A stretch of DNA of 64,000 bases from Asterochloris sp. CNOR1 (Eukaryota > Chlorophyta > Trebouxiophyceae > Trebouxiales > Trebouxiaceae). The notes beneath the pieces are model-generated. The model saw only the letters and a list, made by a program, of their open reading frames with translations. It did no database searches and was not told the DNA's origin. How positions within the stretch are numbered: position 1 is the stretch's first letter; every line of letters starts with the position of its first letter. The position numbers were made by a program, and so were the translations under genes. The stretch is from the NCBI GenBank assembly GCA_963969365.1, contig OZ017747.1, positions 2,294,001 to 2,358,000 on the forward strand. Reading direction: 5' to 3'. This document shows, one piece after another, positions 5,067-63,436 of the stretch.

Positions 5067-8000
5067 TCAATGGTCGATTTCGCAGCTGCCTACACAGCAC
5101 CAGAAGACAAGATCAGCTTTGCTCTCTTTGCTGGCAGATGCAAGTGCATCCTCAGGTGGAGCCAGGCCTGTGATTGCTCTGCAATGCACCAGATGGTAAC
5201 AGATGCGCTGACATTCGTAGATGCAGTCCACAGGCACGGTCGGATCTTGACCACTGCAACACACCTCTGGGAAGTAGTCCTGCAAGGGAACTTGCTCCAT
5301 CTTTTCGCTCTTCAGACCCTTCAGGGCTGCTGTCGTAGCCCTGGCTCCTGCCACTGTGGTGATGATAGGCACCTTGTACCCCAGAGCCAGTCGCCGTAGG
5401 TTCTTGCCATCAATGATGTCTGGCTCATCCCCTGCACAGCTGAGCATCTGTTGTGGACAGCTTGTCAATGTCAGCTACAAGCGCGAACAGATACAACCCA
5501 GCAGAGATAAGGCAGCAGCTGAATGCAGCAGGTGTGGCAGGCACCAAGTTACAGAAACTCACCAGGCAACACCAGCATCAAGACAATACCTTCAGCCCTG
5601 CAGCTGTGGCACATGCAATATGGCAGGTGCGCAGCTGAGTAGGCAACGCAGACCTGTGGAGGTGATCAGCATCATGGCAATGTCCCCATTCTTGACCAGG
5701 TCAGCCGCATTGGGGCGGCCCTCCTGGATTTTAAGCACTCGCTCTGAATCAATTCCTGCTGCCTTCAGGTGCGTCTGTGTGCCCCCAGTGGCCAGGATGC
5801 CGTATCCTAGGTCCTGCCACAACAAGCAGAGCATGTGAGCAAGCTGGGATGAGTGCAGTTCTCAGGACCGCCCTCAGCTCCTCTGGAAGGGCTGTTGTTT
5901 GCAAACCGATGCAGACAATCAGAGCAAAGCTGGGCAGCCCTGCCTAGACAGGCACTGCACACCATGTGCCGGAGAAGCTCCTCAAGGGCTGCAGACAAGC
6001 CCAAATTAATCCCAGCAGAGCTGCTACAAGCAAGCATGCCATGTGCGATATGTATACCTGCTTTATGGCCTGCACAGGGAGCAGGCCACCCTGGCTGCAG
6101 GCACAAGGCACGCTGAGTGCTGCAGGGCCTCCGGCAGCTCAGGTCTGCCCTCTTAAGTGTGCAAGGCATGCAGATGCTGCAGGGCACCTGCAGCTCCTTG
6201 GCGATGGGCACAATTGCGTCCTTGAACTTGTCAGTCATCGAAATGAAGATGTTGCCGCTGGCTGGCAGCTTTTGCCCGGCAGCTGTGGCAGCCTTGGCAT
6301 ATGCCTTGGCAAAGCTGGTGTCAATGCCCATGACCTCACCAGTGGACCGCATCTCAGGACCCAGCAGCGTGTCAGCACCTGCACAGAATGGTAAGAGGGC
6401 TACATGCACTGCCAGGTTGGATATTGACTTAGCAACATACTCCTTTGAGGACTGCAGTGTTGCTGAGCTCATGGGAGGATGGCCAGTCTCAGGGAGCTTC
6501 TCCAAGCATAAATCAGGAAAGCAGCAGGAAACATCTTGGCAGCATCTTGGCAAGATGACGTGCTCCCAGAGCAAAGCCAACCTCGCAGGCAGGCTGCAGC
6601 TGACCTGGGAATTTCTCAAATGGCAGCACAGCCTCCTTGACGGCGACATGATCAAAGGTGGGCTCCTCAGTAAAGCCCAGCTCTGGCAGCGTCTGCCCAG
6701 CCATGAGCAGACTGGCATACTTGGCCAGAGGGTGGCCCACCGCCTTGGCCACAAATGGCACCGTCCGCGAAGCCCTGGGGTTGGCCTCAATGATGTAGAC
6801 CTGCACAGGGAGGTGAAATGCTAGCGGGATACAGCAACATGGGTGGTGCACCAGACCTGATGTCTTGAGCTGCATGCGCGCAGGGCAGAGCTGCTCGTGG
6901 AGAGGCAAGGCGATGGCACCAGTGATCAGGTGTGGTGCTGGAAGGCTACGCATTGAGATGCTGAAACAACAGCAAAAGTGCTTTGTGGGCTCCTGGCAGC
7001 AGTCAGGCCTCAGTGCTGGTACGACTTGCTGATTGTCAGGTCAGGCAGCCCAAGCAGGCCTTGTCGGTACAGGCAACACTTGCCTGGTTGTCCTGGACAC
7101 AGTACTGCACATTGATCAGCCCGACAACGCCCAGCTCGCGAGCCAGCTTGGGAGTCCACTCGCGGATGGTGTCCAGGCACTCCTTGGGAATGGTCTGGGG
7201 AGGGATGCTGCATGCAGAGTCACCTGCAGCCGCAAGCTGGCAATTACGGCCGAGGCATGCATCCTGCAGGCTTGTGCATTGCTGGCCAGTGTGTTGCTTG
7301 CTACCCAGCATTGGCCTGAGAGTAGAGCTGTTGGGCAGGCATGACGGTCACACTGTTGCAATGCAAGGCTACTTTGCAGCCTGGCAGCCTCACTCAGCAG
7401 CATTACACTCTACGTGACAAGCTCACACATTCAAGTGCATAGCAGGCCCATTACAATTTGCCACTGAGCAAGAGCACCAACTGAGTGTCCCCCAACCTGC
7501 CTGATGTGCTGCTTGCCCAATGTGTTTCAGCAGTTTCAGCAAGCGCAGGTGGCCCCCACCCGAGTGTACTCCAGCCTGCTCGATGTGCTGCATGATGCCG
7601 CAGATGACGACATTGCCATCCTTGTCGGCCAAGGCATCCACGTCCAGCTCATCTGCGCGGTCCAGGTACTTGTCCACCAGCACAGGGCGCTCAGGGTCTA
7701 CCTCCACCGCGTTCTCTATGTAGCGTTTCAGATCCTTGGTGCTGCAGGGCAGGGCAGCAATTACAAAGTGTGCCATTGCAAAGCTCAACAAAGTGCTCGG
7801 GCACTGACGGAGAGCGCAGGCGTGTCAGGCAAAGTCACCCCTACTGCTGCAAAGCTCCATGCAGTGCATGATGGTACACAAGCGGTGCATATCAGGGCGG
7901 GGCATCAGTCGGGACAGGGTAGAGGTGAGCTTTTCACGCCTGCCCAGCTGCTGCTCTTGAAAAATGCTGCAGCCCTGAGCACACACAGTTGTTATAGCAG

Positions 8001-11660: not shown

Positions 11661-11692
<32 letters not shown>

Positions 11693-18700: not shown

Positions 18701-19165
18701 CCCGCGGGAGGCCTGCCAGCGCCCCCAGCACAGAGCGCCATGAGCGGCTCTTTGCGGAGAACTCAGACAGCACCGTGGCAACGTACAAGCAGATGCGCGG
18801 CTTCAGCGCAGCGTACACCATGCAACCTTACATCCAGCAGATCAGAGGCTACAGACTGCGCAAATCAATGGATTCAGATCCGCTGCAGCAGCCACAGGCT
18901 GAGAGTTGAGACAGGCCGCTACACATCAGAAGCCAGACACAAGAGGACTTGCCGCCTCTGCACATCAGCAACCGCCATAGAAGACGAGCAACACATCTTG
19001 CTGCACTGTCCCCAGCTCGATGACCTGCGCAACGCCCACAGCCACCTATTCCAGACGCCAGGACAGACTCTGACAGATCTCTTTGATGACCATCCCCCAA
19101 TTTTGCTTGCTAAGTATGTGCGTGCAGCGCTGCTTATGCATCAATCAGTGCTGCTTTTACCATGA
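15722..19165 (+). pseudogene. LINE ORF2: AP-endonuclease, reverse transcriptase, zinc motif (frameshifted)
   Basis: This is the LINE polyprotein that nicks the target and primes reverse transcription. The endonuclease part covers 15722-16018 (frame 2; CLTETW, GGIAVYMK) and continues in frame 3 from about 16000 to 16691 (CGDTNANTG, CSDHLPV, the catalytic GD-N and SDH motifs). The reverse transcriptase is in frame 1 to 18909 (HKKGDKADLNNYRPI, FEKAFDTVDRE, QQGSPLSPLLFGLLLD, LLYADDLAIL). The C-terminal zinc motif (CRLC, then HILLHC) is in frame 2 at 18906-19165. So there are three frame changes. All catalytic residues I can check are present. No ATG is evident at the start. Confidence 0.85.
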
Positions 19166-25511: not shown

Positions 25512-28429
25512 ATGGCAGCAGTCAAAGAGCAGCCCTCTGCTTATGCCAATGGCGATGACCAAGCCAACACATATTCTGAGAGGCCCGGGGAGCAGCTTTG
25601 CAAGATCTCTGACAAGCACCGCGCATCCACTACGCCCCTCAAGGCAAAAGTCATTGCTGGGCGGGACTCCCAGCTTGCAATGCTGGGTGCATGAGGCCTG
25701 TTCTCCTGCTGCAGATCCCCACGAGGCTGCTGATGGGCCCTGGACCAAGTCAGTGCTGCAGTGCCTCAGCTGCTGTCCTTTTCTGAGCAGCTTCAGGCCA
25801 GTGACACGAGCAAGGCCAAGCATTGCTGACAGTCTGCTGTGTGCCCTGCCTGCAGCCAATGCGCATCCCCGTGTCCTCGCTTCTCAGGTAGGCTTGCTTT
25901 CTTGGAAAGAATGGTGACCCAGATGCTACATAATAGGCCTGCTCTGCAGCCCCTTGCTGGCCAGACCTGCACTCAGCCTGCGCCCTGTCTGCTGCAGACC
26001 CTGCCTTTGCTGGGCCACCTGCACCCCCCTTTCCTGGCCATCATGGACGAAATTCAGGTCAGGAGAGCCGTTGCCTACACTGCTGGATGCATTGTGGACC
26101 GCCAAGACATTGCCGGCTCACCCCACATGCTTCTGGCTTCAGGAAGGTCTCCGCTACCTGTTCCAGACAGAGTCTCCTTATGTGCTGTACGTCAGTGGCA
26201 CTGGTGGGTGTGCCGAGTAAATTGCAGCCTTCGCTGCTGCCTGTCCTCACAACCAGCTGCCTGCATCTGGGCCCAAATGCGTGCGATTCTGCTGCAGGCC
26301 ATGCTGGCATGGAGGCAGCCATTGCCAATGTGCTGGAGCCTGGAGAGACCATCATTGTAGGCAACTCCGGCATCTGGGGCCAGCGCGTCTGTGATCTGAG
26401 CGAGAGATACGGAGGTCAGGCTGTTCCAAGCTTTGCTGCTGTGCCTGGAAATTCTCTGGATGACCCACCTGCCACCTTGCTGCCAGGTGCAAGCTCTCCT
26501 TTGCCACTGCAGGCAAGGTGGTCAACCTGGAATCGGGTCATGGGGCTGCCCTGTCCTTTGAGCAGATCGAAAAGGCAGTGTCAACTCACAAGCCAGCAGT
26601 TCTGTTCCTCTGCCAGGTGCAGCTTGGCCCTGACAGCAGTGGATGTTGCTGCGTTCATGTGGCTTGACTCTGCACCGCACAAGGGTTCCTCCTCATGCAC
26701 GTGCCATGCTGCGCTGCCACCAGGCACAGTCCCACCTGTGTACCTAGGTTCAGTGCCTTCCATGCTGCGATGCCCCCAGAATTGACCTTCGAGCCTGCCA
26801 TGCAGGGTGAGAGCAGCACAGGCGTGCACCAGAGCCTGGCAGGCATTGGCAATCTGTGCCACAAGCACAGTTGCCTGCTGCTGGTGGACTCAGTGTGCAG
26901 CGCAGGCGGGGTGCCACTGTTTGCGGATGCCTGGGGCATTGATGTGATGTACTCTGGCTCCCAGAAATGTCTCAGCGCGCCGCCAGGTGGGTGCCAAGAC
27001 CGGGCTGGCCCACCTGCGTACAGATTGCTGTGTTGGGGATTGAGGGTGCTAGAGCTCAGGCCGAGGTGGCAGGGTGGCCATTTGCCACCTTGACCGCCCA
27101 GGACAGCTGGCACAGCCTACTCGGGCACATCGCAGGCCAACTCATCGAACTGCGAAGAGCCTCTTTGATGCCCCGCAGGTGCTGCTCCCTTCATGATGAG
27201 CGAACGAGCCATGCAGAAGCTGAAGGGCCGGAAAGCAAAGCCCGCCAGCTACCTGCTGGACATGAACCTGATGGGAGATTACTGGTGGGCCGTTGCAAAC
27301 ATCTGGACTGCTGCATAGCTTGACTAACTACTGCTTCCAGCAGAAGATCATCCTCCATAAGCTTGACCCTGCTGCAGGGGCTGGTTTGGCAAGCGCTCCT
27401 ACCACGCAACTGGCAGCATCAGCACAGCGTGAGGCCTTTGCTGCCTTGCTTCTCATGGCTCACTCAGCACTGGGACAGCACACGTCTGCCCTTGTGCAAA
27501 CTACTTGCGTGCTACTTGCGTGCTTCGCTCACACAGCACTCCTGCATGCTGTCCAAGACAACTGAGGCTGTGCAGCAACATGCTGAGAGGTGTGCTGGGT
27601 GTCCTGCAGGTATGCCATGCGTGAGGCCCTGGCCATTGTTGCTGAGGAGGGGCTCGACACCATGTGGAAGCGCCACACCCAGCTGGCCAAGCAGCTGTGG
27701 CAGGGCCTGGCTGAGCTGGGGCTGGAGCCATTTGTCACTGTTGCAGAGGACAGGCATGCCTTGCATGAAATGCATTTGAACGAAACACTGCCTCAGGCAG
27801 AGCCTGCTCTACTGCAATCTCATCCATAAATGCAAGCTCCTGAGCCACTGACAGCAATGCGCCAGATTGCTTCTTGGTGTGTGTCAGGCAGGACCCCATT
27901 CTCTAGCTGAGGCTGTGGCACAGCTTGTGCTGCAAGACTGGCCATGAGGGCTGCCACACACCACCTCCCAAGCCTAGCGCCGAGCACGCCCACAGGCTGC
28001 TGCCTGCAGGCTGATCACCGTCAACACCATCAGGGTCCCCAAAGGCGTGGATGCACTGAAGCTGATAGCGCACGCCATGCAGACTTACAGCGTGGAGATT
28101 TCAGCAGGTATGGCTGCTGCTTCAGGTCCCTGCACTGGTGTGAGAGCAAGCATGAAAGATGATGCCTTTGCAGCTGAGACCACGTGGCAGCCCACGTGGG
28201 CCGCCCTGACTTCTGATGATTTTGAACAGCATGATCATGGTGACCAGAGCCTTGCAGGCAGTGGTGCCTCACACATGGCCTGTGCTGTGCACCTGCAGGT
28301 CTTGGCCCCTCAGCAGGTCAGGCATGGCGGGTGGGCGTGATGGGCTACAACGCTAGGGCTGAGGCTGTTGCCCTCGTTGTAAATGCCTTCAGGACAGGAC
28401 TTGCCGAGCAGGGTTACACAAAGAAATGA
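25512..28429 (+). CDS. Alanine-glyoxylate aminotransferase (class V, PLP)
   Basis: Transfers an amino group from alanine (or serine) to glyoxylate, giving glycine; in algae this serves photorespiration. Thirteen exons sum to 1251 bp (416 residues). Landmarks: LLMGPGPTN near residue 50, [45 protein letters not shown] and [12 protein letters not shown] with the PLP lysine at about K234, then [12 protein letters not shown] and [19 protein letters not shown]. The first 43 residues precede the conserved fold and do not look like a clear organelle signal. The C-terminus ends YTKK, not a classic PTS1. Two introns (25644-25714 and 27754-28009) start with GC, and both are needed for frame and for family motifs. 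It resembles animal AGXT at least as much as plant SGAT. Confidence 0.93.
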
Positions 28430-32500: not shown

Positions 32501-32621
32501 CAAGTGGCGCCCCTGTGCATTGCAGGTTGTGCAGGAGTGCCATCCGGGGGGCGCCATCTCACCTCAGTCATGCCACTACTACAAAGAATGGCTCACCAAG
32601 CCACCAGATGCTGAGTTCTGA
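29563..32621 (+). CDS. RPC6: RNA polymerase III subunit RPC6 (RPC34)
   Basis: Subunit of the Pol III-specific RPC3-RPC6-RPC7 trimer that helps open promoters of tRNA and 5S genes in the nucleus. Seven exons sum to 891 bp (296 residues). The N-terminal half holds two winged helices (NKELEKFAEDMRKNAINKL, then RTNLQQAQITKVLKQLETR and KSIRPV). The centre reads KKFYISFDIEPSTEITGGAWY, and the third winged helix is EDVSSIVDTLESDF. The C-terminus keeps the four cysteines known to bind an iron-sulfur cluster (C261, C264, C270, C281; CGRCPVVQEC onward). All introns are GT-AG. Intron 5 (31496-32206) is filled with copies of its flanking exon ends. The 5' part of exon 6 is only weakly conserved. Confidence 0.93.
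31545..32105 (+). repeat. Decayed copies of exon 5 end and exon 6 start within an RPC6 intron
   Basis: Downstream of exon 5, positions about 31550-31592 repeat its end and donor (ATTGAGGAGTCAGTGAGTG versus ATTGAGGAGTCGGTGAGTC). Upstream of exon 6, three blocks at about 31891-31928, 31929-32012 and 32024-32105 repeat its start (for example GGTGCTGTGCAGGGGCTGG and GCCAAGATGCAG versus GGCTGCTGTGCAGGGACTGG and TCAAGATGCAG at 32214). None is needed for the family alignment. They carry substitutions and indels, so they look like old tandem duplications now spliced out. Confidence 0.65.
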
Positions 32622-40900: not shown

Positions 40901-43900
40901 AGAGGATGGCCCAGCTGCTCGAATCTGCCCTATGGCACAGGATGGAGCTCTGGCCAGGCGCCCTGCAGAACTGAATGCATACAGGCTGCAGGTGAGCAGC
41001 CTGCTGGCTGCAACACATCTCGTGAGGTTGTCCTTGTGAGGTGGTCTGCCTGTACAGCATACTCAAGGACGTCAGGTCAGCACTGACGTTAGGTCAGCAC
41101 TGGAAGTCTCAGTGCCTGATCTCATCCAGTGGTCTCTGGCGTCATCAATGGCAAGGCTGGTGAGCAGATGCTGAATGCTTTGCCCACTGCACCTGGCCTG
41201 TTGGGTGCAAAGAGGTTGCGGGAAGGTTGCTGCCAGCTGCACGCCCCACTGGATTGCATTATCAATCAGCGGTACTGACCAGCAGTTCAGCTCTCTGGCC
41301 AGCTACTCGGGTCATTACGCTGTGGGCTGCAGACCATGCAGGTCCGCCGTGCACCTCCACCAGGGCAAGCCGCCCCCTTACGCATGGAGGCTGCAGAGGA
41401 GCTCCCTGCCAGCTGCTCACTTGGTCATCTCCTGCTGTGGCCCACAGCATTGATCATGCACCTCTGTCACAGCAAGCCACTCTCTTCAGCATAAGGGCTG
41501 CAGAGGAGCTCCCTGCCAGCCGCAAGGTCGACGTGTCCTGCTGTGGCCTGCAGCATTGACCGTGCACACCTACCACGGCAAGGATCGGGTGAAGGAGGCA
41601 GAGCAGCTGGCTCGCTATGCCTGCGTGCTGACCACCTACACCACGCTGGGATTGGATGCACCTCTGCAGCCAGAGAAGCAGGCCATGGCAGAGCGGCAGC
41701 CCAACGCCCTGGCGCCAGGTGAGTGCCACCAAAGCAACCAACCATGCAGGGAAGTGTCCCCCAGAGGAGCAAACTGCAGGCCTGCAGCATGTGCCCATGG
41801 TCCAGGCAGGCTCTGTGGACACGAGGAGTCTCTGCTGGGGGAATGGTGGACCATGCGCCAGCACCACTGCCCTGGTGTCATGTGAGTCAATAGGGGCACC
41901 CTGCTCAGGAAAGCACCACAGTACAGCACTACAAGTGCCCCTCCTGAGCACGCACAGGCAGGCACCGTGTGATACAGTGGCAGCGTTCCCCAATGTTGAC
42001 CGCTGGTAAGGGCAAGCATCGCACGCGCGCAGAGCCTTGCCTGAGCCTGGCATAGGGTCATCACATGGTGTCAAGCTGCCCCTCTGGTACCCAGCATTGG
42101 CACTACATGCTGACGGCATGCTCCTCCCCTCAGTCAAAAAGAAGCGGCGGAAGTCTGCCGTTGTGGGGCCCCTGCACCAGATATCGTGGTGGCGGGTGGT
42201 GTTGGATGAGGCCCAAGCCATCAAGAATGCGCGCACGCTGGCAGCACACGCATCACGCTGCCTGGAGGTGAGCGCAATTCCTGCATCGGGTCGTTGGCAG
42301 AGCTCTGGCCTAGCTGGGCATCCTAGGAACTTACCGCAGCAGGAGGTCATGCTGTCAGGCATGCATGTGGCGAATTATGTGACAACTCATCCAATACATG
42401 CCTTCACTGGGCTGAACCCTGCCTGCTGGTCAGTCTCTGACCAGAGCACAGCCTGGTGTACTGACAGGGGCCAAATCTCACACCTGGCTACCCTGTAGGC
42501 CGAGCATCGCTGGTGCCTGAGCGGGACGCCGGTGCAGAACTCGATTGATGACCTTTTCAGTTATTTTGCGTTCTTAGGCTACATGCCGTACGGCAAGCTC
42601 GAGGCCTTCAAGCGCCTCATCAGCCTGCCCCTCCAGCGCCAGCCAGAAGTGGGGGCCAAGCGGCTACAGGCCTGCCTCCAGGCAAAATTTTCCAGCATGC
42701 TCTGCTTCAAGAGCCTGATCTATGCTGCTGTCCCTTCTGGCAGTTCATGGCTTGCGCTTGGCCACTCTGATGCTGCAACGTCTCACCTTGCAAGCCAGCT
42801 CACAGCTCCTCCTTGAGGCAGAGTGGGGCTGCTGCATCATTGCCGACAGCGATTTGGACCCATTGGCTGAAGCATGCACCTTGTGTCATCAGCAAACCCT
42901 GCTTTCTGCAGACCATGCTGCTGCGGCGCACAAAGAGCAGCACCATTGACGGGCAGCCTGTCGTGAACCTGCCTGCACGGGAGACTGGCCTGGTCAAGAA
43001 GGACTTTGATGAACAGGAGCGCCAGTTCTACAAAGACCTGGAGTCTGAGTCCCAGGAGAAAGTCTTGGTGGGTGTTTGAGCCCTGGCAGGGGCCTGAAGT
43101 GGGCAGCTGCAGGAAATCTCTGCTTGATGGACACCTTCTTTGGCTCAGAAAGTCTCAATGGGCAGCAGCAGACAGTGCCTGCGGGGTCAGGCAGCTGATC
43201 AACTGTCTGCAGCGGAGGGAGGCAGGCTTTGGCACAGAAAGTCTCAAGTCTCACAAGACAGCTGGTGGGGCTCAGCAGGAGCTCATGGTGAGCCACAGCA
43301 AACTGTGTCTATGCTGCGGGGCATAGGGTGCCCTGCATTCTGCATGGTGCTGAGGTTGATTAGCCAGGGGAGGTTGGGAGGTCTGAAACCCTGTCGTAAG
43401 AATGAGGATCTGAGTCCAGGACAAGTTCTGGTAACTGTTGAAGCTGCAGCAGAAAATTTGGGATGCAGCAATCGTGCCTGTTGGGCTCCTGCTGTCAATG
43501 CTGTTTGGGGTTGGCTGAGGTTGAGGCCCAGGGGAAGACCCAGGTGACTGTCTGGGTCCCAGCTGGACTTCCCAGTGTGTCTCACTACTGGCTGCCCTGC
43601 AGGAGCTCAAGGCAGAGAGCGTTTCAGGCGGGCATTCCAACTACATCAACATGCTGCGCCTGCTGCAGCGCCTGCGCCAGGCCTGCAACCACCCCTGGCT
43701 GGTGCGGGGCGAGGCCGATAACAATGTGTCTGGCTCAGTCCCGGCTGCGCAGGTGGCTGCTGCCCGCAGGCTGGACCCCTCCATCCGGGGTGACCTGCTG
43801 GAGGCCCTGCAGGTGACAGTCCTCGTCATTCACACAGGTTGGGAGATGCGTTCGTTGGTACTGCTCACCGGACTTCAACTTATGGGTACCTGCTAGAGGT

Positions 43901-46900
43901 GCTGCAGGGAGGTCACTGACAATACAGCTCATCAGCAGGCCTGAAGTGTCGCCTGATGTCTGGCCGATAAGCACAGTGGTTGTCAAGGCAGGCAAAGCAG
44001 GACTCCGCAGCATTGGCCTCTGTTGTGCACAGGAGCTGAGAATCAGCAGCCCTGCATGCTCTGCAGCTCCTGACAACATGCTTTTTGCTCCTGAGGGACT
44101 GTGGGTGGGTGATTGTCAGCATTTCAGGCTACCTCTGTGCGGTGCAGAAGGGGGATCAGGGCTGTGCCAATTGTGGCGACGTGCCTGAGGCACCTGTGGT
44201 GGCCGCGTGTGCCCACGTGTTCTGCAAACAGTGCCTGGACCTGCAGGTCAGTGCGGGCAGAAGGTGCTCCCCCTGCTATCTGTCTGCGGTGCCTGGACCT
44301 GCCAGTCAGCTACAATCCGTTGTTGTGTGGGCATGTGCATGGCTGGGACCTGGTCCAGATTGCTGTGGCCTCAGCAGGAGTTGCTTTTGCACCCCTTGGC
44401 CGCCACCTGCGGGGACCCGTTAAGGATCTGCACAAATTTGCTGCAGTTCTGGTCAGACGGGGCGCTGTGGTGACTGTTCCACAAAGATTCAGCCCTGCAT
44501 CTCCTGCTGGGGTCATGTGCAGCAGTACAGCAGTGCCCCAGTGCTGCTCCTCATGGAAAATGGCTGTGCCTGGGTTCAGCTTGTGCGCTGCTGAGAAGTA
44601 TGCTCTCACCTTGACATGGCTGCTCCTCAAGTGGGTCCATGTGCCAGCAAGGGCATGCAGCCCAGAATGCAGACAACGGCCGTAGCATCTGATGCCCCCA
44701 GTGAATGGCAGCCACTTCATCACTTGGACATGGCTGCCCCTGAGTGGCTCTGTGCGCTGCAGGCAGCTGCAATCGGCGCTGCAGACAAGGACCCCAGCAT
44801 ACAGTGTCCTCAGTGTGACATAGCCATTGGCCCCTCCCAAGTCTTCACAGAGATTGCCCTCAAGCAGGCCAGCAACCCGGGCTTGCCGCCGCCATCCAAG
44901 TGGCAGGGCAAGAAGGGCAAGTCTGCTGTCTCGGGCAAGATTGCCACCACTGAGTGGGTGTCCTCAGCCAAGATCAGGGAGCTGCTGCGAGTGCTGAACA
45001 AGCTGAGGCAGCAGAACGAAGACTTGTGAGTGCTCGCAGCACAAGCATGCTGCATGCTCCAGGCAGCATTTGCTGCTAAGGGTGCTGAGTGCAGCTGCAT
45101 GAGCATCCTCGAGTGCCTGCACCTGCAGGCCTGCTGCATGCTCAGCACTGGGGTTGCTGGCAACTGTGTTGGCTGATGTGGGTCTTGTGCAAGTACAAGT
45201 GCAGCTCGGTGCTCTGCATGCTGCCAGACAGCAGTCAGCAATGACCCTGGAAGGTGTCACCCATGGCAAGTACAGAGCAGTGCTGTGACAAGTGACGTGC
45301 AGCCGCCGCCACGGGCTGCGCAACGAGCTGGTTGTTCTGCCTGCAGCATCATCTTCTCATGCAAAATAGGTGTGGTATGCAGCCTCCGTCACTGCGTGAC
45401 TCCTCGTCCTGCAGGTACAAAAGTGGTTCCTGAACGGCTCCCCAGGGGGTGCAGCGCAAGGCCATGGCTTAGTTGCAGGTTCACTTGTGGCAGGCATGCA
45501 TCAGGAGGGGTGCAGCCGTCACAACTGCCTGACATGGGCCCTACTGCATCTTGTTCATCTCATGGCAGCAGAACAACCTCCATCACTGCCTGCAGACGCA
45601 AGGGTGGTCCCCTGAATCGCCCGCTCGGGCAGCGCAGCGCCACTGCCTTGAGCATGTCCTTTGCCCGCGGGCGCCCAGGCCGCCAATGGGGCCACTCCCA
45701 GGCAGCCAAAATGCAGCAGAAGGTCATTGTATTCAGCCAGTGGACCACTATGCTGGACGTGGTGGAGCGGGCCCTGGGCATCGAGAAGTGAGCTTCCATG
45801 GTCTTGGATGTGCCGCACCGCAGCTGGGGACAGCGTGTGCTTGCTGCTTGTCAGCACATGAGTGAGCGAGCATGCTGGATGTGGTGGACGGGGCCCTTCG
45901 TTTGAGAAAAGAGAGTGTTGCGCACCCATGCAAATAATACACCCCATGTCAGCACCTTATGTGTGCCTGAGAGAATATTGGGTGCATGGCTGCTGCTCCT
46001 GCAATGCAAAGGGGTGTGCTGCTGTGCGCAGCTTCCCATGTGCACAAACACACGGCATGGCATGCCTGCCTTCCACACCAGACATCAAGTGAGGCCACAA
46101 TGGTGGCTAGCAGCCACGCCTCGGCAGGCAACCTGACAGCAGGCTGGCCTGGTCGCCAGCCTGGTGGACACTAGCTGGTGGACAATAGCTGAGTTGTCTA
46201 GCAGCAAGATCAACCTGGCTTTGGCTGCCCGCAGGATTGTCTTCCGCCGCATGGACGGCACGATGTCAGTGACGCAGCGGGACAAAGCGATTCAGGACTT
46301 CCAGGAGAGGGCTGACGTCAACGTGCTGATCGTCAGCCTGAAGGCGGCGGCCCTGGGGCTGAACCTGGTGGCGGCCAACCATGTGGTGCTGCTGGACCTG
46401 GTGAGGCGTCTTCTCCTGCGTGCGCCTTGTGTGGCCCCTGTGTTTCCAATGCTGCACAGCTGCTGGCGCTGTCACACATGGTAAGGCCTCTGCAAGTACT
46501 CTTGGCGCTGCTGTCTGTGTACTGCAGCAGTTCCCTGAGTGCTTTGCCTCAAGTGCTGTGCCTTATGTGCAGCATGGTGCAAGGTCTCTGCCCACTTCTG
46601 GCACTGCTGGGTGTGCATGGCCACAGGGCTCCTTGAGTGATGTGACTACTGTCATGCCTGGCCACTGATTGCTTGCATCCATGCCACAGTGGCCTTGTCG
46701 CATGCCTGGCTATGACAACTCTGCCCACTCAAACGCGCTGCTGATCTTGCTTGATGCAGTGGTGGAATCCAACAGTGGAGGAGCAGGCCATCGACAGGGC
46801 CCACAGGATTGGGCAGACACGGACCGTCAACGTCACCAGGATCACCATTGCAGGCGAGCTAGCATCATCAACTCAGGCACTGGTCAGGCCAGGCCAGCCA

Positions 46901-47156
46901 ACTCACATGCCTTGGGCAAGGAGCACCCCCCTTCCGCATCGGTACATGGGTCCCGGCACAGCCCAGCCTGCCAGCTAGCATTTTGCATGCCATGGGAAGG
47001 CAGGCACCTCTTGCTGCAGGCACCATTGAGGACAAGATGCTTGCCCTCCAGGACCGCAAACGTAGGCTGATTGCCACAGCCATCGGTGATGGCAGCGCCA
47101 GCATGCAGCAGGCCAATAAGCTCACCCAGCAAGAGCTGGAGTCCCTCTTCTTCTGA
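37964..47156 (+). CDS. SNF2-family helicase with inserted RING finger (Rad5/16, FRG/CHR28-like)
   Basis: Nuclear ATP-dependent DNA translocase with a ubiquitin-ligase RING. In plants the closest type (FRG/CHR27-28) acts in chromatin silencing; in yeast Rad5/Rad16 act in repair. About 15 exons. Exon 1 (37964-39211) encodes a long Ala/Gln/Pro-rich disordered region. SNF2_N follows: [30 protein letters not shown] (Walker A, with an intron before GLGKT), [23 protein letters not shown] (DEAQ box), [37 protein letters not shown]. The RING is [20 protein letters not shown], then CKQCL and CPQC. Helicase_C is [63 protein letters not shown], and the frame stops after LESLFF. Three introns have GC donors (39212, 42682, 46854). 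One exon between 45025 and about 45706 is unresolved. Confidence 0.92.
41395..41584 (+). repeat. Duplicated exon-5 acceptor junction in an SNF2 intron
   Basis: The acceptor of exon 5 and its upstream intron (41494-41584: AGAGGAGCTCCCTGCCAGCC, then CAGCATTGACCGTGCACACC) is preceded by a decayed copy at 41395-41475 (AGAGGAGCTCCCTGCCAGCT, then CAGCATTGATCATGCACCTC). Only the downstream copy keeps the reading frame into [12 protein letters not shown]. Confidence 0.65.
45751..45915 (+). repeat. Duplicated exon/donor junction after [10 protein letters not shown] in the SNF2 gene
   Basis: The exon end ATGCTGGACGTGGTGGAGCG (45750 onward, with its donor at 45788) is repeated in the following intron as ATGCTGGATGTGGTGGACGG (about 45872-45914), with a tail that has lost the donor. 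A shorter similar pair, GTGCCTGGACCTGCAGGTCAG and GTGCCTGGACCTGCCAGTCAG, lies at about 44230 and 44289 around the RING exon. Confidence 0.6.
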
Positions 47157-51690: not shown

Positions 51691-54600
51691 ATGCGCTGCC
51701 ACTATGAGGTGTTGGAAGTCAGCCGCGATGCAGATGATGATGCCATCAAGAAAGGCTATCGCAAGGCAGCCCTCACTTGGCATCCAGGCAAGGATGTGGG
51801 TGCTGGGGCATGCTCAGGAGACAGGACCCTTGGCAGGGCACCTACAGCTGTTGCCGATGAGCCCAGCACAGGCTCATTGCCTTAGCCTTGTGCTGCAGAC
51901 AAGAATCCTGACCGTCGAGAGGAAGCTAATGAAAGGTTTCAGGAGGTGGTGAACGCTTGGGAGGTAAGTGCTGACCTGCCAGGCAGGCCATCCTTCAGGT
52001 ACGGCCGCTTGCACGCTGCAATGGCATTCTGATGTGGTCTCCCATCAAGCTGCCCTCAGCCGCCCACTTTCTTGGCTCTGCGGTCATGTGTGCTTCTGCA
52101 CTACAGGTGCTGAGCGACAAGCATGAGCGGGCATGGTGAGCACCGACACCACCAGCATGGCCTGGGCAGCTGTTGCTCCATGCACACACCTGAGGCAGCT
52201 GCTTTGCGATCAAGTGCTCAATACACTCAGCCTGCAACGCTTTCCCACGTGCCAGTCTGCACTCCTTGGTCCCGCCACAGCTGCTGTGCCAGCCGGGGTG
52301 CATGCTCCACCCTTGGAGGCAGCTGCTGTGCCCCATGCCAGGTACGACAGCCACCGCAGCGCCATCCTGCGCTCTGGGGAGACACACCAGGCTGGCGGCG
52401 GCAGTGGGGCAGCTGCAGGCGGGCGCCCGAAGGATGATGTCGACCCCTTCCAGTTCTTCACACCCTCCTGCTTCTCAGGCTACAGTGACGGCTCCCGTGG
52501 CTTCTACACAGTGTACAGCGGCGTCTTCAGCAAGCTGGCTGCTGAGGAGGCGCAGGCCAGAGAGGCAGAGGACAGCTGGAGAGACGACATCGTGCCCGCC
52601 TTTGGTGGGCCTGGCTTGACAGCTGCTTAGCTGTGCTGTCTGTCATTACATGGAGTCTGTTACCAAGCAGCCTACTGTGAGGCATGCTGCTGGGTCGGGT
52701 GCTGCTGCTGGCTTTGATGGGAGACTTGCATGCCTGAGGCACACCCCTGGGTTGCTGCTTGTCTTGGCATCTGCTAGGAGACAGCCGTGGTGCAGAGACC
52801 TGCTGATAGGGCAATGCTGTGGGCTCTCCTGACTTAGCTTCACCTGAGGTTTGGTGCTGTGCTGGCCTCTTTTTTTGATGCCTGCTTCCAGCAGCCCCGA
52901 GTGCCACTGACTAGGGCCAGGGCTGGCAGAATCCTGCTGGTCAGCCCCTTTCAGGGAGTTCATGGCTGTGAGCTGTCTGTGCAGGCACATCCCAGACCGC
53001 CGGCCCTGAAGTCAGATGCTTCTACAGCTACTGGATGGACTTCTGCACCTCTAAAACCTTTGCCTGGGCTGACAAGTGGCACCCAGGCACAGCGCAGAAC
53101 CGCAAGGTGCGCAAAGGCTTCCTGCTGAGGCTGATGGGGATCTGACGCTGGGCAGGCTGGCAGCCAGCATGGGGCACTGATGCACATCCTGATGGAGGCA
53201 GTGGCATGGCAGTGCAGCAGGTGCTGGCAACCTTCCCTTGGCCTGCCATCTGCTCCTTAACTTTCTGCAGGTGCGCCGGCTCATGGAGGAGGACAACCGG
53301 AAGGCCCGCAAAGCTGCCAGAAAAGCATACAACGAGGCAGGCAAGTGCTGTACTGAGTGTGCCCGTTCAACTGGCCAGCCATCAAGCTTGTAGACTAGCA
53401 TGTTTAGCTGCCTGCATTGTCCACAGGCCTGCACCGCCTCAGCCTGCCGGGCGCTGCATGGCGCTCAGCTGCTGTGTCGATCATGCTTAGGCTCATCCTG
53501 CAGTGCGCGAGCTGGCTGCCTTTGTGCGGAAGCGGGACAAACGCATGGCTGCTTGGCAGGCGGAGCTGGCCCGGCAGCAGCAGGAGCGTGAAGCACAGGA
53601 GAAGGCCAGGTGCGGCCGCTTGATTGTAGAGAGCAGCCCTGGGAGGCACTGCCTTGCCCATTGCGATGCAGCGACTGGCAGCTATCTGCTGTTGGCAGCC
53701 ACCTGTGGTGCGCAGACTTGGCAGGCTCCTCCCTGCCACAAACTGCCCTGCCTGCCTGCCATAGCCAGGGTCTGTCTTACTGCACGCTGCCGTTGCCCTG
53801 ACCACCTGTGTCCATCATCAACCCCGCACAACTTGTACACAGACCTGTACATACACCTGGCAAGCATCAAGGGCCTCGCTCAGAGAGCTGTATGCTCTGA
53901 GGGCTTCTACCGGCTGGCAGGCAGCTGTTGCTCACGATAGCAAAGTCCATTGCCCTCAGTGAGGGGCATCGTGCGGGCAGCAGGTTGGATAGTAACATCA
54001 TGCTGAGGCGATGTATTGAGCACAACGCTTGACTTGTAGCCCTACATCAGCTCTTGGTGCTCTCCAAGTCTTGCACCTCTATTTCCTGCAGGCGACAGGC
54101 TGAGCAGGCTGAGCGTTGGGCTCGTGCAGCAGCGCTGCGTGAGGAGGAGCGCCTGGCAGCTGAGGAGGCCTCAGGCTCCGAGGATGGTGCCAGTGCCACC
54201 TCTGAAGCCTCTGGGGGCCATTCTGTCGAGGAGCAGATGCAAGACGCCTTCTACTGCGTGCTCTGCGACAAGCAGTTCAAGAGCGCCCGTGCTCTGGCCA
54301 ATCACGAGCGCAGCAAGAAGCATGCTGAGGCCTTTGAGGCACTGCGAGCGGTGCTGGAAGAGGAGCAGGCGCTGCAGGCACAGGATAAGGGGACAGATGA
54401 GGGGGCAACCTCTGCTGAGGAGACAGATGGGGCAGAAGCGCCAGCTGCAGCTGACCTGTCAGGTGTGCACACTCGGACAGCAGCTGTGCTGGGTTGGAGT
54501 GGTGTTGAGTGCAGCCAATGCCTTTGGGACTTTCTACCCATGTGTCAGGCTGTTCAAGCAATCAGACTGTTCAGTGCACCTCTGGGCAGAAGCCTGGTGT

Positions 54601-55411: not shown

Positions 55412-58400
55412 TCAGGAGAATGTGGGGTTCCAAGAGTCAATGTGGGTTGGTTCACTGCTTGTCCGCCGATGCTGGCCTCTCTGCCTCCATGGGACTTTGG
55501 CTTTGCCAGCTTTGCCATCAGGGGAGAGTGGCGTGCTGGCACCCTCCTCCTCGTCCACAGGCCCAGCCCCTTCACTGTTAGCCTCACTGCCCTCCTGGAT
55601 GCCAAATGGATCAAAGGCCGGCAAGAGCTCCTGCAGCGTGGCGGCAGCCCACCTTGGGTGCATGTCCATGTCTGGCACAGGGCTTCTGGCCACAAAATCA
55701 ATGGGTTTGAGCATGTCTGCCATGTGTTCATGCCCACGACAGAAACTTGTGACTCCTCAAGGCTGGCTTGCCTTGATGCGCAGCAGCAATCTGCAGGCAT
55801 CCAGCCACAGCATCACCTTGACAGACTCGATGTTGGACTTGGTCGCCTTGATGAACTCCTCCTGAGGTCCGGGCACCCGCCTGGAGGGGGACCCTGGCCC
55901 GGTGGCATCGCCATTGGGCACCTCTGCATCACGCAGTGTGCCAAAGGCATCCCAGCAGGGGTCTGCATCCAGGCTGACCAGCGAGCCCTGGCTGCCTGCA
56001 GCCTGCTGGTGCTTGATTTGCGAGGCCCTGCCAAAGTTCTCAGCCTGCATTGTAGGAGAAAGCTTTCTGAGCCACACACGCATGCCTCACCAGGTCTGCA
56101 GCTGCTTGAGTGAGTTTGGCAGAAAGCAGCTCTGCCTGGACATGGGCAACAGGCAGCCCTGCAGGGCCAGCTTGGAGCAGTCCCCACACCTGCAGCTGCT
56201 GAATGGTGGCCTGCTGCGCTGCCACCGTGGCCTGCAGCTTGGCCACTTGCTGCCGCAGCATCTCCACCTCATGCGCCCCAGAGCTGCCTGCTCCTGTCCC
56301 CGCCTCTGCAACCTGTGGACTCCCCGGCGCAAAGTGCTGCTGCGCCTGAAAGGTAGGGGTCCCTCCTGCAGAGTGCGGACTGGCTGGCGCCCGCTGCCGG
56401 GAGGGTGCCAGGCCAGTGGTGTCGCTGCTGCGCCCAGCCCAGAAGTGGCCAGCTGCTCCTGGGCTGGTGCCGCTGGGCCTAGACGAAGTGGCAGCCTCCT
56501 GACTAGGGGCTGCAGGCAGCAGTTGGTCTCGAGGCCTGCCAGAACTGGCATGACCTGCCTGATGCAGTGCACAACATCATGCTGCGGGCATTGTCGAGAG
56601 CATCCTTATGCAGTGCACCACGACATGCTGCAGGCATTGTCAAGAGCACACATGTTCATGCTGGAGGAGCATCGCCAGGAAGGCAGCTCGCAGCTTAACC
56701 CCAGCTGTACAGGCAGCTTGCCGCACCTGCTGGAGATGCCTGCGACGCAGGTGGTGACTGGCGCACCACGCTGCGACAAGGCGGGGGGGGCCCTGAGGGC
56801 TGCGCTGAAGCCAGTGGGGCTGGCGCTCGAGTCGCTGCCTCTCCAACCACAGCTGCTGCCGGCGTGGACACCAGACTCCGCGGGCTGCTCGACAGCGGCT
56901 GTTGCTGCAGCGCCTGCTGGGGTCCAGGCATCTGAGCTGCTGGGGATGCAGCCAACGGGCTGCCTGCTACAGGCTGCCGTGTCAGCGATTCCACACGCTG
57001 CACCACCTGCAGGGCACAAGGGTGTGACAGTCTGATTGCCCAGAGCACTAATGCCTTCTGCGCCCAGACTGCAGGGCGGAGACACCAGGATCCTCAGATG
57101 GCCATGCCAACCCTGACCGCAGAACATGCCCAGCTGAGCAGAAGAATGTCAGTCTGAGGCCCCATCCAGTGCTGCACATCGAACGGGAGCAGGGGCGGCG
57201 GGCACTGACCTGGTCGATGGTGGGTCGCGCTGCGGGGGACACGGTCAGCATGTCCCGAATGAGGGCCCTGACGCCTTCTGGCCGTGCCCTGGGCATGCGG
57301 TAGTCTCCATTCAACACTTGAAGCTTGGCGTCCCCCTCGAATGGCAACTTGCCAAAGGCAATAAAGAAGAGCAAGCAGCCCAGAGCCTGCAGGGTCACAG
57401 CCTCAGTGTACTGACAAGCTGCCGAGGTGAAGCAGAGATGGCAGCCAGGCCGATCAAGATGCCAGGCCTGGTTGCGCACAGCTGATGCTGGCAGCTGCAC
57501 TCACCCAGATGTCTGCCTTTACGTCTATCCGCTCCCGGCTGTATAGGTCAAACATCTGCAGCAGCACGCACACGTTTCACAGTCACACCGGCACAGGCAG
57601 GCCTTGCCAGTCCACTGATGGCAGCTCAGACAGATGAAGCACAGTGGGTGCTATGCTGCATGCCTTAGGCATGGCTTTTGCTCACTCTGCACTTGTTGAT
57701 TGAATTCCAGCACACACAAAAAAGCCAACCTCCGGAGCCCGGTAGGCTGGCGTAGTGTACTTGCGGATGAGCTCCTCAGCCACCATGATCGCATTGGCGC
57801 TCTCATACACCCCCGCAAAGGCTGTCGTGCTGCCAAAGTCGCACAGCACCCAGTGGCCCGCCTGATGCAGGAGCACATTCTCCGCCTTCAGGTCCCTGCA
57901 GCCAGCATACATGCCTGTGGATGCGCCTGCTCCAGTGCCCTGGGGGCACCTGCTGCGAATGCAGAGCAAGGGTGGAGGCACTCATGCCTGCGGATGGGCG
58001 CAGGGCAATCAGGGCTCTAGGTTGCAAACAGCCCTGGCAAGGCCTGCTGCGCAGATAGTACAGCGCGGCATCAAGGTGGGGGAGCACACAATACCAATGC
58101 AAACAATACAAAGGCGACTCGGGCTAAGCAGGCGAGTCAGTGGACGGTCGTCTTCATGCCTGTGCAGCACGCTGCAGTTGGGGCTCACCTGTGCGCCAGC
58201 GGGGGCTGGCAGCTGTGCATGGCTGCCACTGCATCTGCCACCGCACCAAAGATGGCGAGCACCTGCTCGTCGCTCAGGCGGTGCTCGTGGTGCCGCAGAA
58301 ACTCCACCAGCGTGTCGTGGCACAGATCTAGCAGAAGGAACGCCTCCTGCTCCTGGCCCTTAAGCCCAGCAAAGGCTGTCGCGTGCAGGGTCAGCACATG

Positions 58401-58810: not shown

Positions 58811-60612
58811 ATGGCCTGCAGTCAGCCAGTTACAAGCCTCCAGGACACTCTCAGCCTGACGCGCAGTGAAAGTGGGAGGTTGACCCTGGTGCAGCAGGAC
58901 TGCCCCCTAAGGCTCTCTGGCCAGTTGTCCGAGGCCGCTGCTGCCTGCAAGCAGCATGGCACCACTCATGCAGATCTGCTGCAGCTGCTGCGAGCCCTGC
59001 GCAACCTGTGTGCAGCAGGTCCTCATGTATGTGAGGCGCTGTCGCAGCAGGGGCTGCCCTCCAGCACCCTGACAGTGCTGCGGTGTCATGCAGCCCTGCC
59101 TGGTGCGTATCCCTGATCACCTGCAAATCTGCAATTTCTGCCGGCGTATGTACACTCCCACTGCTGCTGTTGCAGATGGGCCAGACCTCCTGCAGGCTGG
59201 TGCCCAGCTCCTGGCCAACATGGCAGCAGGCAGCCCTGCTGCAGCACAGGACATTTATGCAGTCCTCACCCCAGAGATCGGCAGCCTGATCGCTGGCGCT
59301 GGAGGTGACACTTTGTGCACAGCGAGCTGCACACATGAGCTCAGCCACAATGTGGTGGACTTTTGATGGCATGGCTGCAGGTGGAGCTCTGAATGCCTTC
59401 AGCTACCTGCTGCTCAGGCTGGCAGCCGTCTGCCCAGGTGCAGCACTTCAGTTCTGTGGCCAGCCCTGGCACATCGTTCTGCGAGCCCAACTTGTAGCCT
59501 GCCAGCAGCCTGACTTGCAGGCAAGATGCTGCCTCACTGCCCTCTTCAGACTGTGCATGCTCAATGAGCGGCCGTGACCCCGTGGCCTGCAGGTCAGCTT
59601 TACACCTGCCATGCTCCTGACGGCCCTGAGTTTAGAGCATGCCTGCCTGGAGCAGGTGCTGAGCTGCCTGCATCCAGTGCCTGGGTCAGGCCCCGCCCCC
59701 TCAACTCCAGAGCAGCATGAGCTTCTCTGCTTGCTGGCTGCACAGGCAGACGCAGTCAGCCCGGCGCCAGTCAGGTAAGATCACGCGCTCACTGGCCACC
59801 GTTCCATGTGTCTACTGGCCCCGGACTGTCTGCCACGTCCAGTCTCGCTGCCTGCCTGCAGGCCCTGGGATCAAAGTGATGTCCACCAGCCAGCAGTGGC
59901 TGCAGCGCTGATGCGCCTCCTGCAGGCTGCTGAAGGAGCGGATGACCCTGAGGGGATGCAGGGCTTGCTTCAGGTGGCCTGCTGCTCAGTTGTGTTTGAC
60001 GCTCTGGATGGCCTGCGTGCCAGAGCTGTCGTGACTACGGGCTCCTGGCCGTGAGTGCTGAGGTCGGGAGCTGACGCAGGAACCTGCATGCTGTGAGGCA
60101 TGACTCCTGGCTGCAGTTGCTGAGGTCGCTGCTGACACGTGAGGACCACGGAGCCGCCCTCATTGGCAGCAGCGGCCTGCAAGCTGCTCTGTGCAGGCTG
60201 GGACTGGTGCCGCACCTGCTGCGCAAGCTGGCAGCGCTGCCCAGCCCCAGACCCCCGCCAGGCGGGGCAGCTGCGCAGGTCCACCGGCTCAGTGGGTTGC
60301 CCTATGCCAACTACAGATGCGACCTGGTGCTCATCCTGGGCACACTCTGCCACAGGAACAGAGCTGCTCAGGATGATATCATGGAGCATGGCGGGGTGCC
60401 ACTGCTGCTGAATCAATGCCAGGTGGGCTGCTTACATGCTAGTGCATGCAGGCAGCAAGCCTGCAATGCGAGCCAAGGCCACTCCCTGCTGCGTGCAGTG
60501 GGATGCTGACAATCCACATGTCAAGGAGTGTGCAATCCTGGCGGTGCGCAATCTCTGTGAGGGCAACAAAGCAATTCAGGGCTTCATTGCTGAGCTTGAA
60601 ACCCAGACATGA
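58811..60612 (+). CDS. ATXN10: Ataxin-10 family armadillo-like protein
   Basis: Helical-repeat scaffold protein of unclear role (yeast CTR86; in animals linked to cytokinesis and cilia). Seven exons sum to 1275 bp (424 residues), starting at ATG 58811. The body is a series of Leu/Ala-rich helical pairs (DLLQLLRALRNLCAAGPHV, GAQLLANMAAGSPAAAQ, LLRSLLTREDHGAAL). The C-terminus is the diagnostic ataxin-10 domain: YRCDLVLILGTLCHRNRAAQ, HGGVPLLLNQCQWDADNPH, ECAILAVRNLCEGNKAIQ, GFIAELE, then stop. The intron 59521-59592 has a GC donor, the only choice that keeps phase into VSFTPAMLL. The protein is somewhat shorter than animal ataxin-10. Confidence 0.88.
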
Positions 60613-60761
60613 GAATCAACGACGACCGGCCAGAATCCACATTTAGACTCTCGCAGAGCAGCGGCTGTGCGTTGACACGGCAGGGGCCCTCCCAGATTGC
60701 ATCAAGGTCATTGGGTGCAGACTGATTTGGGTGCAATCAAGAAACCCGACTCCGATTCCTG

Positions 60762-63436
60762 ATGCTGGGAGCTCGCCAGCTGCCACCCCAGCTTGCCCAC
60801 TTTCACTGCCCTGCACCCTGTGCTCCGACCCATTGCTCGGCAAGACCTATTCCCAGATTGAGGCAAGCCCTTAGCAGGCTCACACCTCAGGCAGCAAGCA
60901 GTGCAGCTGCAGCAGAAGTGAGCTATGCTGCAGCACCATTGCTTACTCTCATCAGACAGATCACAATGCTTTGTGACAGCATCAGATGAACTTGCCGCTT
61001 GTTCTGAGGAGACTCGCTGACAGGCAGTGACAGTGGCACTCTCCACTTGCAGGTCCAGCAGGAGTGGGTGCAGGGCCTGGCCAAATCCACCTTAGGCAGC
61101 AGACCAGTAAGTGATGCACAGGAGGCAGTCAGCAGCAACGGCGCTGCACGGGCTCCTGTAGAGCCACCCTCAGACGAGCAGCACATTCTGCTTTTCTATG
61201 CCACAGGTGGGTTGAAGATGATGTGCAAGTGGCGCCTGTCATGCTCAGCGTGCTGTCACTGCAGCCCGATACCGCATGCTGATGCCTCAGGCCTTCTCTG
61301 GCATGCATGCAGGCTGGCAGCACCCCAAGCTGCACTACTCCATTCGGGGAGGAGCCTGGCAGGACACACAGCTTCGACAGGCAAGCCAACTCTGTGCTGA
61401 GCTCGCATGCCCTGCTTCCAATTTATCTGAGAGCCCTTCTTGTGCAGGCTGTGGCAAGGTGGGCGTACTGCTCACCCTGCAGCGCTGCTGTGCAGGTGCA
61501 CTCATCTGGCGGGCAGTGGAGTCAGGTTAATCTGCCCCTCAATGGGGCTGTGCAGAGCCCATCAGAGTCCCCATTGCTGGAGTTTGTGCTGACTGAGGCC
61601 GGGCATGATGTCTGGGACAAACCTACAACAGGTCGGCCTCCTGCGCCTGCCCCATGCGTCTGAGTCTGGCAGCCACATGGGGGGCGGTCAGGGGCCTGCT
61701 GCACTCTGTGAGGCGGGCCAGCACAATGATGCCCTGTGCCTGAGCCTGGTCACGCGGGAGCTCTGAGTGCTTCAGCCTGGCCCTCGGGGTGACACCGTGG
61801 AGCACAAGTCCAGCTATCGACTTGGGCAAGCTGTTGTCCTGCTGGCTGCAAGCTAGGTTCCCAGCCTGGCAGGCTGTTGCCACATCGTCTCTCAGAGATG
61901 GCAGGCTGATGCCCTGCAGGTGGCAACTACACTATTACAGAGCCCGGGGCCTTCATGCTGCGTGATGGGGAGGTGCAGCAGTCGGAGGGGCAGCCCGTAA
62001 TGGTTGTCTCAGATCTGGACGGCACCATGATTGGGGATGACGCAGCCACTGCTGCATTTAAGCAGTTCTGGGAGACGGAGGCGATCACCCGCGGCAGCTT
62101 GCTGGTATACAACACTGGCAGAGCGCTCAACAAGTTTGAGGAGCTCTGTGGGGAGAAGTCTGGCTGTCTGGCCATGCCTGACGTGCTCATCTCCTCAGTG
62201 AGTCCTGCCTGGCCACGCATGCAACCACCCCCCCATCACATCTCAGTGCGAGCCCTGTGTGTAGGTGGTGCTGCCTGCCTCCCTCCTGGTTGCAGCAGGT
62301 CGTGAATCGCCATGCCTGCTGGATGTTGCTGAGGCAAGCCATCTGCTAGTCCTAGCTCAGTGAAGCACACCACGCTGCAGACAGCATGTGCCTGTCTCCG
62401 CCACTGTCCCTCACGCCAGCCATGCTGATGAGCAGTTGCCGCTGCTGCTCAGCATGCATTTCTCTACTGGAAAAGTAGGCCAAGAGTTGGATGCAGCTGC
62501 ATCATGGCCTGGGGCCGGCCCACAGGCACCAATGAAGACTGATCTGCTCTGGGGACATGTCCCTCACGTTGATCAGGCTGCCTCTGTGCAGGTCGGCACC
62601 AAGGTGTTCAACTGGGAGGATGGCACTTGGGCAGCGGATGCCGACTACGCCTCTCGCCTGGACCAGCAGTGGAGCCTGGAGGCTGTAAGGGATGCCACCT
62701 ATGCGGCGCTGGCCGCTGTGGGCAAAGACAGCATGCACTTCAGGCCGCCCGACGAGCAGAACGATCACAAGGTGGCGCCAGCAACAGCTGTCAGTGATCT
62801 TTGTGTGGGTGCACAGGCTGCTGACGCTCAGACATGGGGCCTGACCTTCAAGCTGCGTCGGGTCCTATGTGAATGTACTGAGCAGGTCGTCCACTGGCTC
62901 GAAGTCCTACGCTTTGACTTTGCAAATCCAGTCTGCCCTGTACAGCTTGTGTGTCAGTCGAAGCCCCTGTGCTCCCCAAAACTTGCTCTGACTTGGCTGC
63001 TGAGGTGGGCATGTGCCGTTTGCAGGTCACCTGTGGTGTGCACTGCAGCGTGCGTGACGAGGTGGAGGCCCAGATCACTCGTGCACTGCACCCACAGCAG
63101 GTGGCTGCTCAGCTGATCTGGAGCGGGGAGGGCGACTGGCGCTTCTTGGACATTGTCAGCAAGAACGCAGGGAAGCTGGCCGCCCTGGAGTTTGTTCGCC
63201 TGAAGCATGGCTTCCAGCATTCCCAAACTGTTGCTTGTGGGGACTCCGGCAATGACAAAGACATGCTGGGCGGCAAGAACCTGGCCATCGTTGTTGGGAA
63301 TGCCCAGCCCGACCTGGTGGCATGGGTGCAAAGCCTCAAACAGGATTCAATCGGGCAGAAGCAGCGCCTGCTGACCACTCAGAGCCATATGGCATTAGGC
63401 ATCCTTGAAGGGCTGCAGCACTTTGGTTTCCGCTGA
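60762..63436 (+). CDS. Plastid HAD phosphatase of the sucrose-phosphatase family with N-terminal starch-binding-like domain
   Basis: Seven exons sum to 1431 bp (476 residues). Residues 1-52 (MLGARQLPPQLAHFHCPAP onward, rich in Ala/Ser/Arg/Pro, with no acidic residue until the end) fit a chloroplast transit peptide. Residues about 85-200 resemble a CBM25/53-type carbohydrate-binding module: HILLFYATA, HYSIRGGAWQD, FVLTEAGHDVWDKP and GGNYTI. Then a complete S6PP-type HAD domain follows: VVSDLDGTMIGDD (nucleophile D219, D221), LVYNTGR, ISSVGTKVF, QLIWSGEGDWRFLDIV, KLAALEFV and CGDSGNDKDML. No plant-type SPP C-terminal domain follows. The substrate could be sucrose phosphate or a glucan-linked sugar phosphate; that is inference. 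The intron 61381-61495 has a GC donor. Confidence 0.85.

Follow-up and report, generated by a model that had tools for sequence, protein, structure and literature searches.

GC-AG introns in a 64-kb stretch of the Asterochloris sp. CNOR1 genome, their donor context and their probable removal by an ordinary major spliceosome

GC-AG introns make up a mean of 1.2% of the introns of plants (PMC6310983), and higher fractions were reported for several algae by Iwata and Gotoh (PMC3033335), with 39.6% in Aureococcus, 22.2% in Micromonas pusilla, 7.7% in Chlorella sp. and 2.7% in Micromonas RCC299. In the same survey these fractions are loosely tied to the genomic GC content, and the 5′ ends of the U1 RNA are canonical in Aureococcus and in both Micromonas species. 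Where GC replaces GT, the rest of the donor has been described as being nearer to the consensus (PMC2490688), and for the GA donors of Oikopleura and Eurytemora a variant of U1 has been proposed (PMC7072748). The subject of the present analysis is a set of 13 GC donors in a stretch of 64,000 nucleotides, called the window below, from the green alga Asterochloris sp. CNOR1 (assembly GCA_963969365.1, contig OZ017747.1, positions 2,294,001 to 2,358,000 of the forward strand; coordinates are counted from its first letter). In searches of part of the open literature, some of them by genus name, no paper describing such introns in Asterochloris or Trebouxia was listed.

Ten homology-proven introns of the ordinary U2 type that begin with GC, or as many as thirteen with the candidates, very probably lie in the window; they would be removed by the major spliceosome, and their donor context would compensate for the mismatch at +2. 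In that, Asterochloris, a lichen photobiont, is one more GC-rich alga with a raised level of GC-AG introns, a phenomenon already known. It shares with the algae described in PMC3033335 a GC-rich genome, a GC-AG fraction above 1% and a canonical U1 5′ end, as in Aureococcus and Micromonas, and it differs from them in its genus, in a level that resembles that of Chlorella in the window and is probably lower outside it, and in that the present evidence comes from sequence alone. With the GA donors of Oikopleura and Eurytemora (PMC7072748) it has a high share of non-GT donors in common, whereas the dinucleotide differs and no U1 variant was found here. The window belongs to the nuclear genome, the assembly measures 56.38 Mb in 21 contigs, and the GC content of the window is 55-62% per 4-kb bin, with which the values published for Asterochloris glomerata agree (a size of 56 Mb, a GC content of 56-62% over 98% of the sequence, and genes with nine introns each; PMC6652019).

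A preliminary description of the window had listed 13 GC donors, and all 13 are present in the sequence, each reading CAG/GC or AAG/GC (a slash marks the junction) with AG at the acceptor. Its statement that family motifs rejoin at these junctions stood for ten of them, at which conserved protein is rejoined with no gap at the join; the donors at 55771, 59521 and 61381 are candidates only. The homologs aligned were seven of 120 listed for the aminotransferase, eight of 120 for JJJ1 and seven of 120 for SNF2, some of which do not cover every junction. In the gene of the carB-like carbamoyl-phosphate synthase large subunit, the intron at 6801..7083 on the minus strand (donor CAG/GCAAGT; support of 7.1 nats in the gene finder described below) leaves an ungapped alignment to 1bxr_A. 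The gene of an alanine-glyoxylate/serine-pyruvate aminotransferase on the plus strand carries two such introns, at 25644..25714 (AAG/GCAAAA; 2.7 nats), where PLK/IPTR is ungapped in six of the seven homologs, the protein P0122 not covering it, and at 27754..28009 (CAG/GCATGC; 8.4 nats), where VTVAED/RLITVNT is likewise ungapped in six of the seven. A DJ-1/Hsp31-like gene has one at 33183..33263 on the plus strand (AAG/GCAAGC; 7.1 nats), with VASMK/GGKVPMDP ungapped to 1u9c_A and 4p5p_A (two alignments of 30 matches). In the metacaspase-like gene on the minus strand (34800..35069, donor CAG/GCAAGC) the gene finder took a wrong acceptor, with which the 8.3 nats of this donor were obtained; homology sets the acceptor at 34800 (TTGCAG/GTGCG), and the match to Peptidase_C14, which scores 79.6 bits (profile positions 1-174) when the intron is read through, reaches 92.8 bits and covers positions 1-228 of 233 once the junction is made.

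The SNF2 (CHR28-like) gene on the plus strand holds three, the first at 39212..39650 (AAG/GCAAGC; 7.8 nats), ungapped to the Trebouxia proteins P0242 and P0244 and to P0243, the second at 42682..42911 (CAG/GCAAAA; 0.5 nats only), ungapped in all seven homologs, and the third at 46854..47019 (CAG/GCGAGC), whose junction matches the homologs. With GC allowed, the gene finder placed 12 of the 13 donors exactly and missed this last one by 39 nt; the homologs favour the position given in the preliminary description over that of the gene finder, which erred here. Its donor, at 46893, was rejected, as it adds 13 residues that are missing from all seven aligned homologs. In the JJJ1/DNAJC21-like gene on the plus strand, the intron at 51788..51898 (CAG/GCAAGG; 5.0 nats) splits the HPDK motif of the J-domain, and a second one lies at 53341..53503 (CAG/GCAAGT; 9.6 nats), each of them ungapped in the seven of eight homologs that cover it. 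The remaining three are a candidate past the kinase domain of an AAK1/GAK-like kinase gene (55631..55771, minus strand; AAG/GCAAGC; 0.7 nats), one in the ataxin-10-like part of a gene model (59521..59655, plus strand; CAG/GCAAGA; 4.3 nats) in which the Pfam match to Atx10homo_assoc lies elsewhere than this intron, and one 5′ of a sucrose-phosphatase-like HAD (S6PP) domain (61381..61555, plus strand; CAG/GCAAGC; 0.6 nats).

The claim that each of these junctions is required by the reading frame held in part. With the acceptor kept in place, eight of the 13 sites lack any in-phase GT donor within 150 nt whose context score exceeds 0.5, and at 39212 and 42682 the in-phase alternatives are weak (1.1). 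Better ones are found at 55771 (45 nt upstream, AAG/GTGATG, with a score of 2.3 versus 6.9 for the GC donor), at 59521 (4.2, standing by eye behind an in-frame stop) and at 61381 (78 nt downstream, AAG/GTGGGC, 4.7 versus 6.8). When only GT was allowed and the acceptors and gene ends were left free, models could be made around the GC sites at a cost: exons were trimmed in the carB, DJ-1, SNF2, kinase and ataxin-10 genes, the metacaspase intron was read through, JJJ1 was split and the aminotransferase was shortened. The frame argument is good at most of the sites and not decisive at two or three.

A public gene model suggests what such donors can do to annotation. Over 72% of its length, the aminotransferase (window 25512-28507) has 98% identity to the JGI protein P0122, which carries the label Astpho2, a code that we take to stand for Asterochloris. 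The first residue of P0122 lies downstream of the intron at 25644, and further on it reads AAAC in place of the VTVAED of the window model, the other six homologs having six residues of their own there; both features are consistent with a gene caller to which these places offered no GT. At 27754 the window sequence has a GT that opens a valine codon, and an AG lies 14 nt upstream of the true acceptor; together they could make a false GT-AG intron, which the JGI caller seems to have used in place of the second GC intron. The public model is apparently wrong at its GC introns, and the proteomes of such algae may carry avoidable errors; our own gene finder's model of this gene has a wrong 3′ end when compared with the homologs. 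The same protein bears on the suggestion that the donors are truly GT and have been altered by an error of assembly or base calling. The donor bases were read in one assembly, which leaves room for such an error, but the late start and the substituted residues of P0122 fit the lack of a GT at both places, and it would be implausible for one fixed kind of error, T to C, to have struck ten different donors; we regard this explanation as highly improbable.

The gene finder was custom-made, with exons, introns and splice signals represented in a hidden Markov model that was trained without supervision on the window and four 50-kb stretches from other contigs (264 kb), with GT donors only at first and afterwards with any of the 16 dinucleotides permitted. 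In the latter run CA donors outnumbered GC donors, 29 to 21, the CA ones lying by eye in CAG repeats, and therefore the support of single sites and a set of decoy dinucleotides were used next. A third run, with the models of the 16-dinucleotide run, allowed GT and one extra dinucleotide at a time under an equal prior, with a donor context that was literature-like, not fitted to this genome, and that favours A at +3. GC as the extra donor gained 159 nats over GT alone in the 264 kb, whereas 13 of the 14 decoys gained 1-33 nats and CA 80, a gain which is put down to the CAG repeats. With GC allowed there were 38 GC calls, 15 of them in the window, and 12 of the 38 (seven in the window) had a support of at least 5 nats, as against four of 159 decoy calls over 14 dinucleotides; scaled by the candidate contexts (414 for GC, 2492 for the decoys), about 0.7 false GC sites would be expected at this threshold, and a rerun gave 11 such sites, six in the window. 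The class of GC donors in the 264 kb is real and above chance. Calls with a support of 2-5 nats numbered 11 (the scaling predicts 9) and those below 2 nats 15 (17 predicted); weak calls, matching this expectation, therefore need other evidence. The calls at 23176, 46893 and 48892 in the window, with 0.2, 2.3 and 1.5 nats, were left out of the GC count.

As to how common these introns are, the window has 13 GC-AG introns among 138, or 9.4% (95% confidence interval, CI, 5.1-15.6), and 10 of 135, or 7.4% (3.6-13.2), when only the homology-proven ones are taken, the denominator being the 125 GT introns of the gene finder plus the GC sites and including some wrong introns and transposon-like open reading frames. 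In the 200 kb outside the window, where the gene finder has 380 GT introns, five GC sites reach a support of 5 nats, from which 2.6% is estimated if the sensitivity is taken from GT introns unaltered (0.48), and 6.8% if their support is first reduced by the prior on GC (0.18). Inside the window these two ways of reckoning yield 7.5% and 14.6%; the first comes closer to the manual figures of 7.4-9.4%, and therefore the low end is favoured outside it. At equal threshold, seven strong sites beside 125 GT introns in the window stand against five beside 380 outside it (Fisher P = 0.015; 0.035 in the rerun), a comparison in which the window had been chosen as striking, and the window probably drew high by chance from a genome whose overall level is moderately raised. 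GC-AG introns are thus clearly above the plant mean of 1.2% in the window and probably so genome-wide; the preliminary description's figure of roughly a tenth fits the window, and the genome-wide fraction is probably lower.

A useful yardstick outside the window is the Midasin gene (L022-L026, C8:1206782-1250000), modelled in three fragments with about 109 introns, three of them GC-AG with homology support. The junctions at 44679, 21289 and 9132 are ungapped to solved Midasins, 21289 with weak identity (E 2e-7), which gives 3 of 109, or 2.8% (CI 0.6-7.8). The fragments hold eight GC calls in all, among them 38291, 15118, 10812 and 47500 with 2.5, 1.6, 0.2 and 1.8 nats. The eighth, at 41397 (1.4 nats), looked wrong by eye, since it leaves an extra stretch between two motifs. 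The remaining 15 GC calls outside the window are calls of the gene finder only.

High levels of GC-AG introns could also arise if a mobile intron of the introner kind, itself equipped with a GC donor, had multiplied in the genome, and Micromonas has both abundant GC-AG introns (PMC3033335) and introner elements (PMC3879977). In Asterochloris, three GC introns, including those at 39212 and 53341, were searched against the whole genome with very common words skipped, and all three matched only themselves. Among 543 modelled introns of the 264 kb, a set that lacked the one at 46854 and the corrected one at 35069, six had matches other than themselves, and none of the six was a GC intron. This largely refutes the copying of introners, to which we give next to no probability at all.

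The donors of the two classes differ most clearly at +3. An A stands there in 12 of the 13 GC sites and in 10 of the 125 GT donors of the window, while G, found at one GC site, occupies this position in 91 of these 125 GT donors and in 388 of 505 GT donors overall. Seen from the other side, 12 of the 22 window donors with A at +3 are GC, as against one of the 92 with G. The mean number of matches at the six context positions scored is 4.85 in the 13 GC sites, which were not picked blind, and 3.55 in 211 well-supported GT donors. In this closer match elsewhere in the donor, the GC class resembles what is described in PMC2490688, and it differs in that the GT donors here mostly have G at +3 and the GC class prefers the opposite. 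Such a sharp contrast between GT and GC donors within one genome is a natural test of whether pairing of +3 with U1 offsets a mismatch at +2.

Six matches to U1 were found in the genome, 41 of 1499 first-look candidates having been scored; all six carry ATACTTACCTG at the 5′ end, five score above the family cut-off, and none has a G at position 7, opposite the C at +2. The U1 genes (C11 and C6; L001-L006) are five similar copies on two contigs and a sixth, diverged one in which the 5′ end is retained. U6 has the usual ACAGAGA core, and a gene for U1-C is present whose N-terminus looks ordinary. GTATCC is a U12-type donor form, and none of the 13 GC sites fits it or the form ATATCC. The latter is given as U12-type in PMC3033335. 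A search for the U12 RNA itself found no match and did not recover its control either, so that it has no bearing on whether U12 is absent.

These results do not support the proposal of the preliminary description that recognition of the 5′ splice site by U1 has been relaxed in this lineage: the inspection of the U1 5′ end and of U1-C that it suggested revealed no variant among the six U1 matches, no other dinucleotide is comparable to GC apart from CA with its repeats, and the GC context is stricter than that of GT. A broader form of this idea would have a variant U1, U1-C or other factor accept GC generally, and a level of GC donors several-fold above the plant mean (PMC6310983) is what it would lead one to expect in the window; yet general relaxation in this genome should yield GC donors with G at +3, of which there is one in 13, and the components inspected look ordinary, which makes altered machinery quite unlikely. 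We infer from the sequence that splicing takes place at these sites in the cell. The normal major spliceosome would remove the GC introns. Its standard U1 would pair with these donors although a C:A mismatch arises at +2, and this mismatch would be offset by a pairing at other donor positions that is better than in GT introns, mainly through A in place of G at +3; U1 may accept it if +3 and +4 pair well. In this GC-rich genome, GT donors may have been the source of the GC donors, which would have persisted where the context compensates. The drift from GT to GC put forward in the preliminary description is in this sense possible, and its products would then be tolerated mostly beside A at +3.

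Several observations weigh against the reading of all 13 as ordinary U2-type introns with a compensating context. The sites at 55771, 59521 and 61381 are plausible candidates at which no aligned homolog fixes the join. A forward-likelihood profile places the optimum of the GC fraction at 11-15%, in the window and outside alike, in conflict with the lower counts; the decoys CC, GG, CT, TG and CA gain in it too, several of them peaking above zero, and because of this like inflation the profile was judged to be biased upward and dropped for the rate. The excess of A at +3 is partly a matter of background, as A follows 36.5% of all AGGC here, and the count of 12 in 13 is biased, since the preliminary description's picks were mostly GCAAG and the context of the run favours A at +3. 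Because both the picks by eye and the run context lean to GCAAG, the cleaner figure is that of the 16-dinucleotide run, in which a shared donor matrix dominated by G at +3 still left A in 15 of 21 GC donors, as compared with backgrounds of 36.5% after AGGC (P = 0.001) and 39% after AGGCNNG (P = 0.003). A stronger, two-letter donor rule, in which a C at +2 is permitted hardly anywhere except next to an A at +3 and the GC introns form a discrete, selected class instead of worn GT introns, is a tentative suggestion that we would sooner doubt than adopt. If it were true, the strength of the pair between +3 and U1 would set the tolerance for GC across GC-rich algae.

Other features of the window include a remnant of a Ty3-type retrotransposon at 166-2354 on the minus strand, with matches to gag and to aspartyl protease/reverse transcriptase, and a similar stretch of about 230 nt that occurs twice by eye, near 2370-2600 and 2880-3110. 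A second retroelement, which we take to be non-LTR-like, lies at 15996-18909 on the plus strand; its part at 15996-16550 has no Pfam match, and that at 16741-18393 matches reverse transcriptase. Family matches were further obtained to TatA/Hcf106 (47320-48124, minus), to the RNA polymerase III subunit Rpc34 (29563-32621, plus), to the CREG beta-barrel (49241-51528, minus) and to tetrapyrrole methylase (23905-25288, minus), the last of these genes being presumably Dph5-like.

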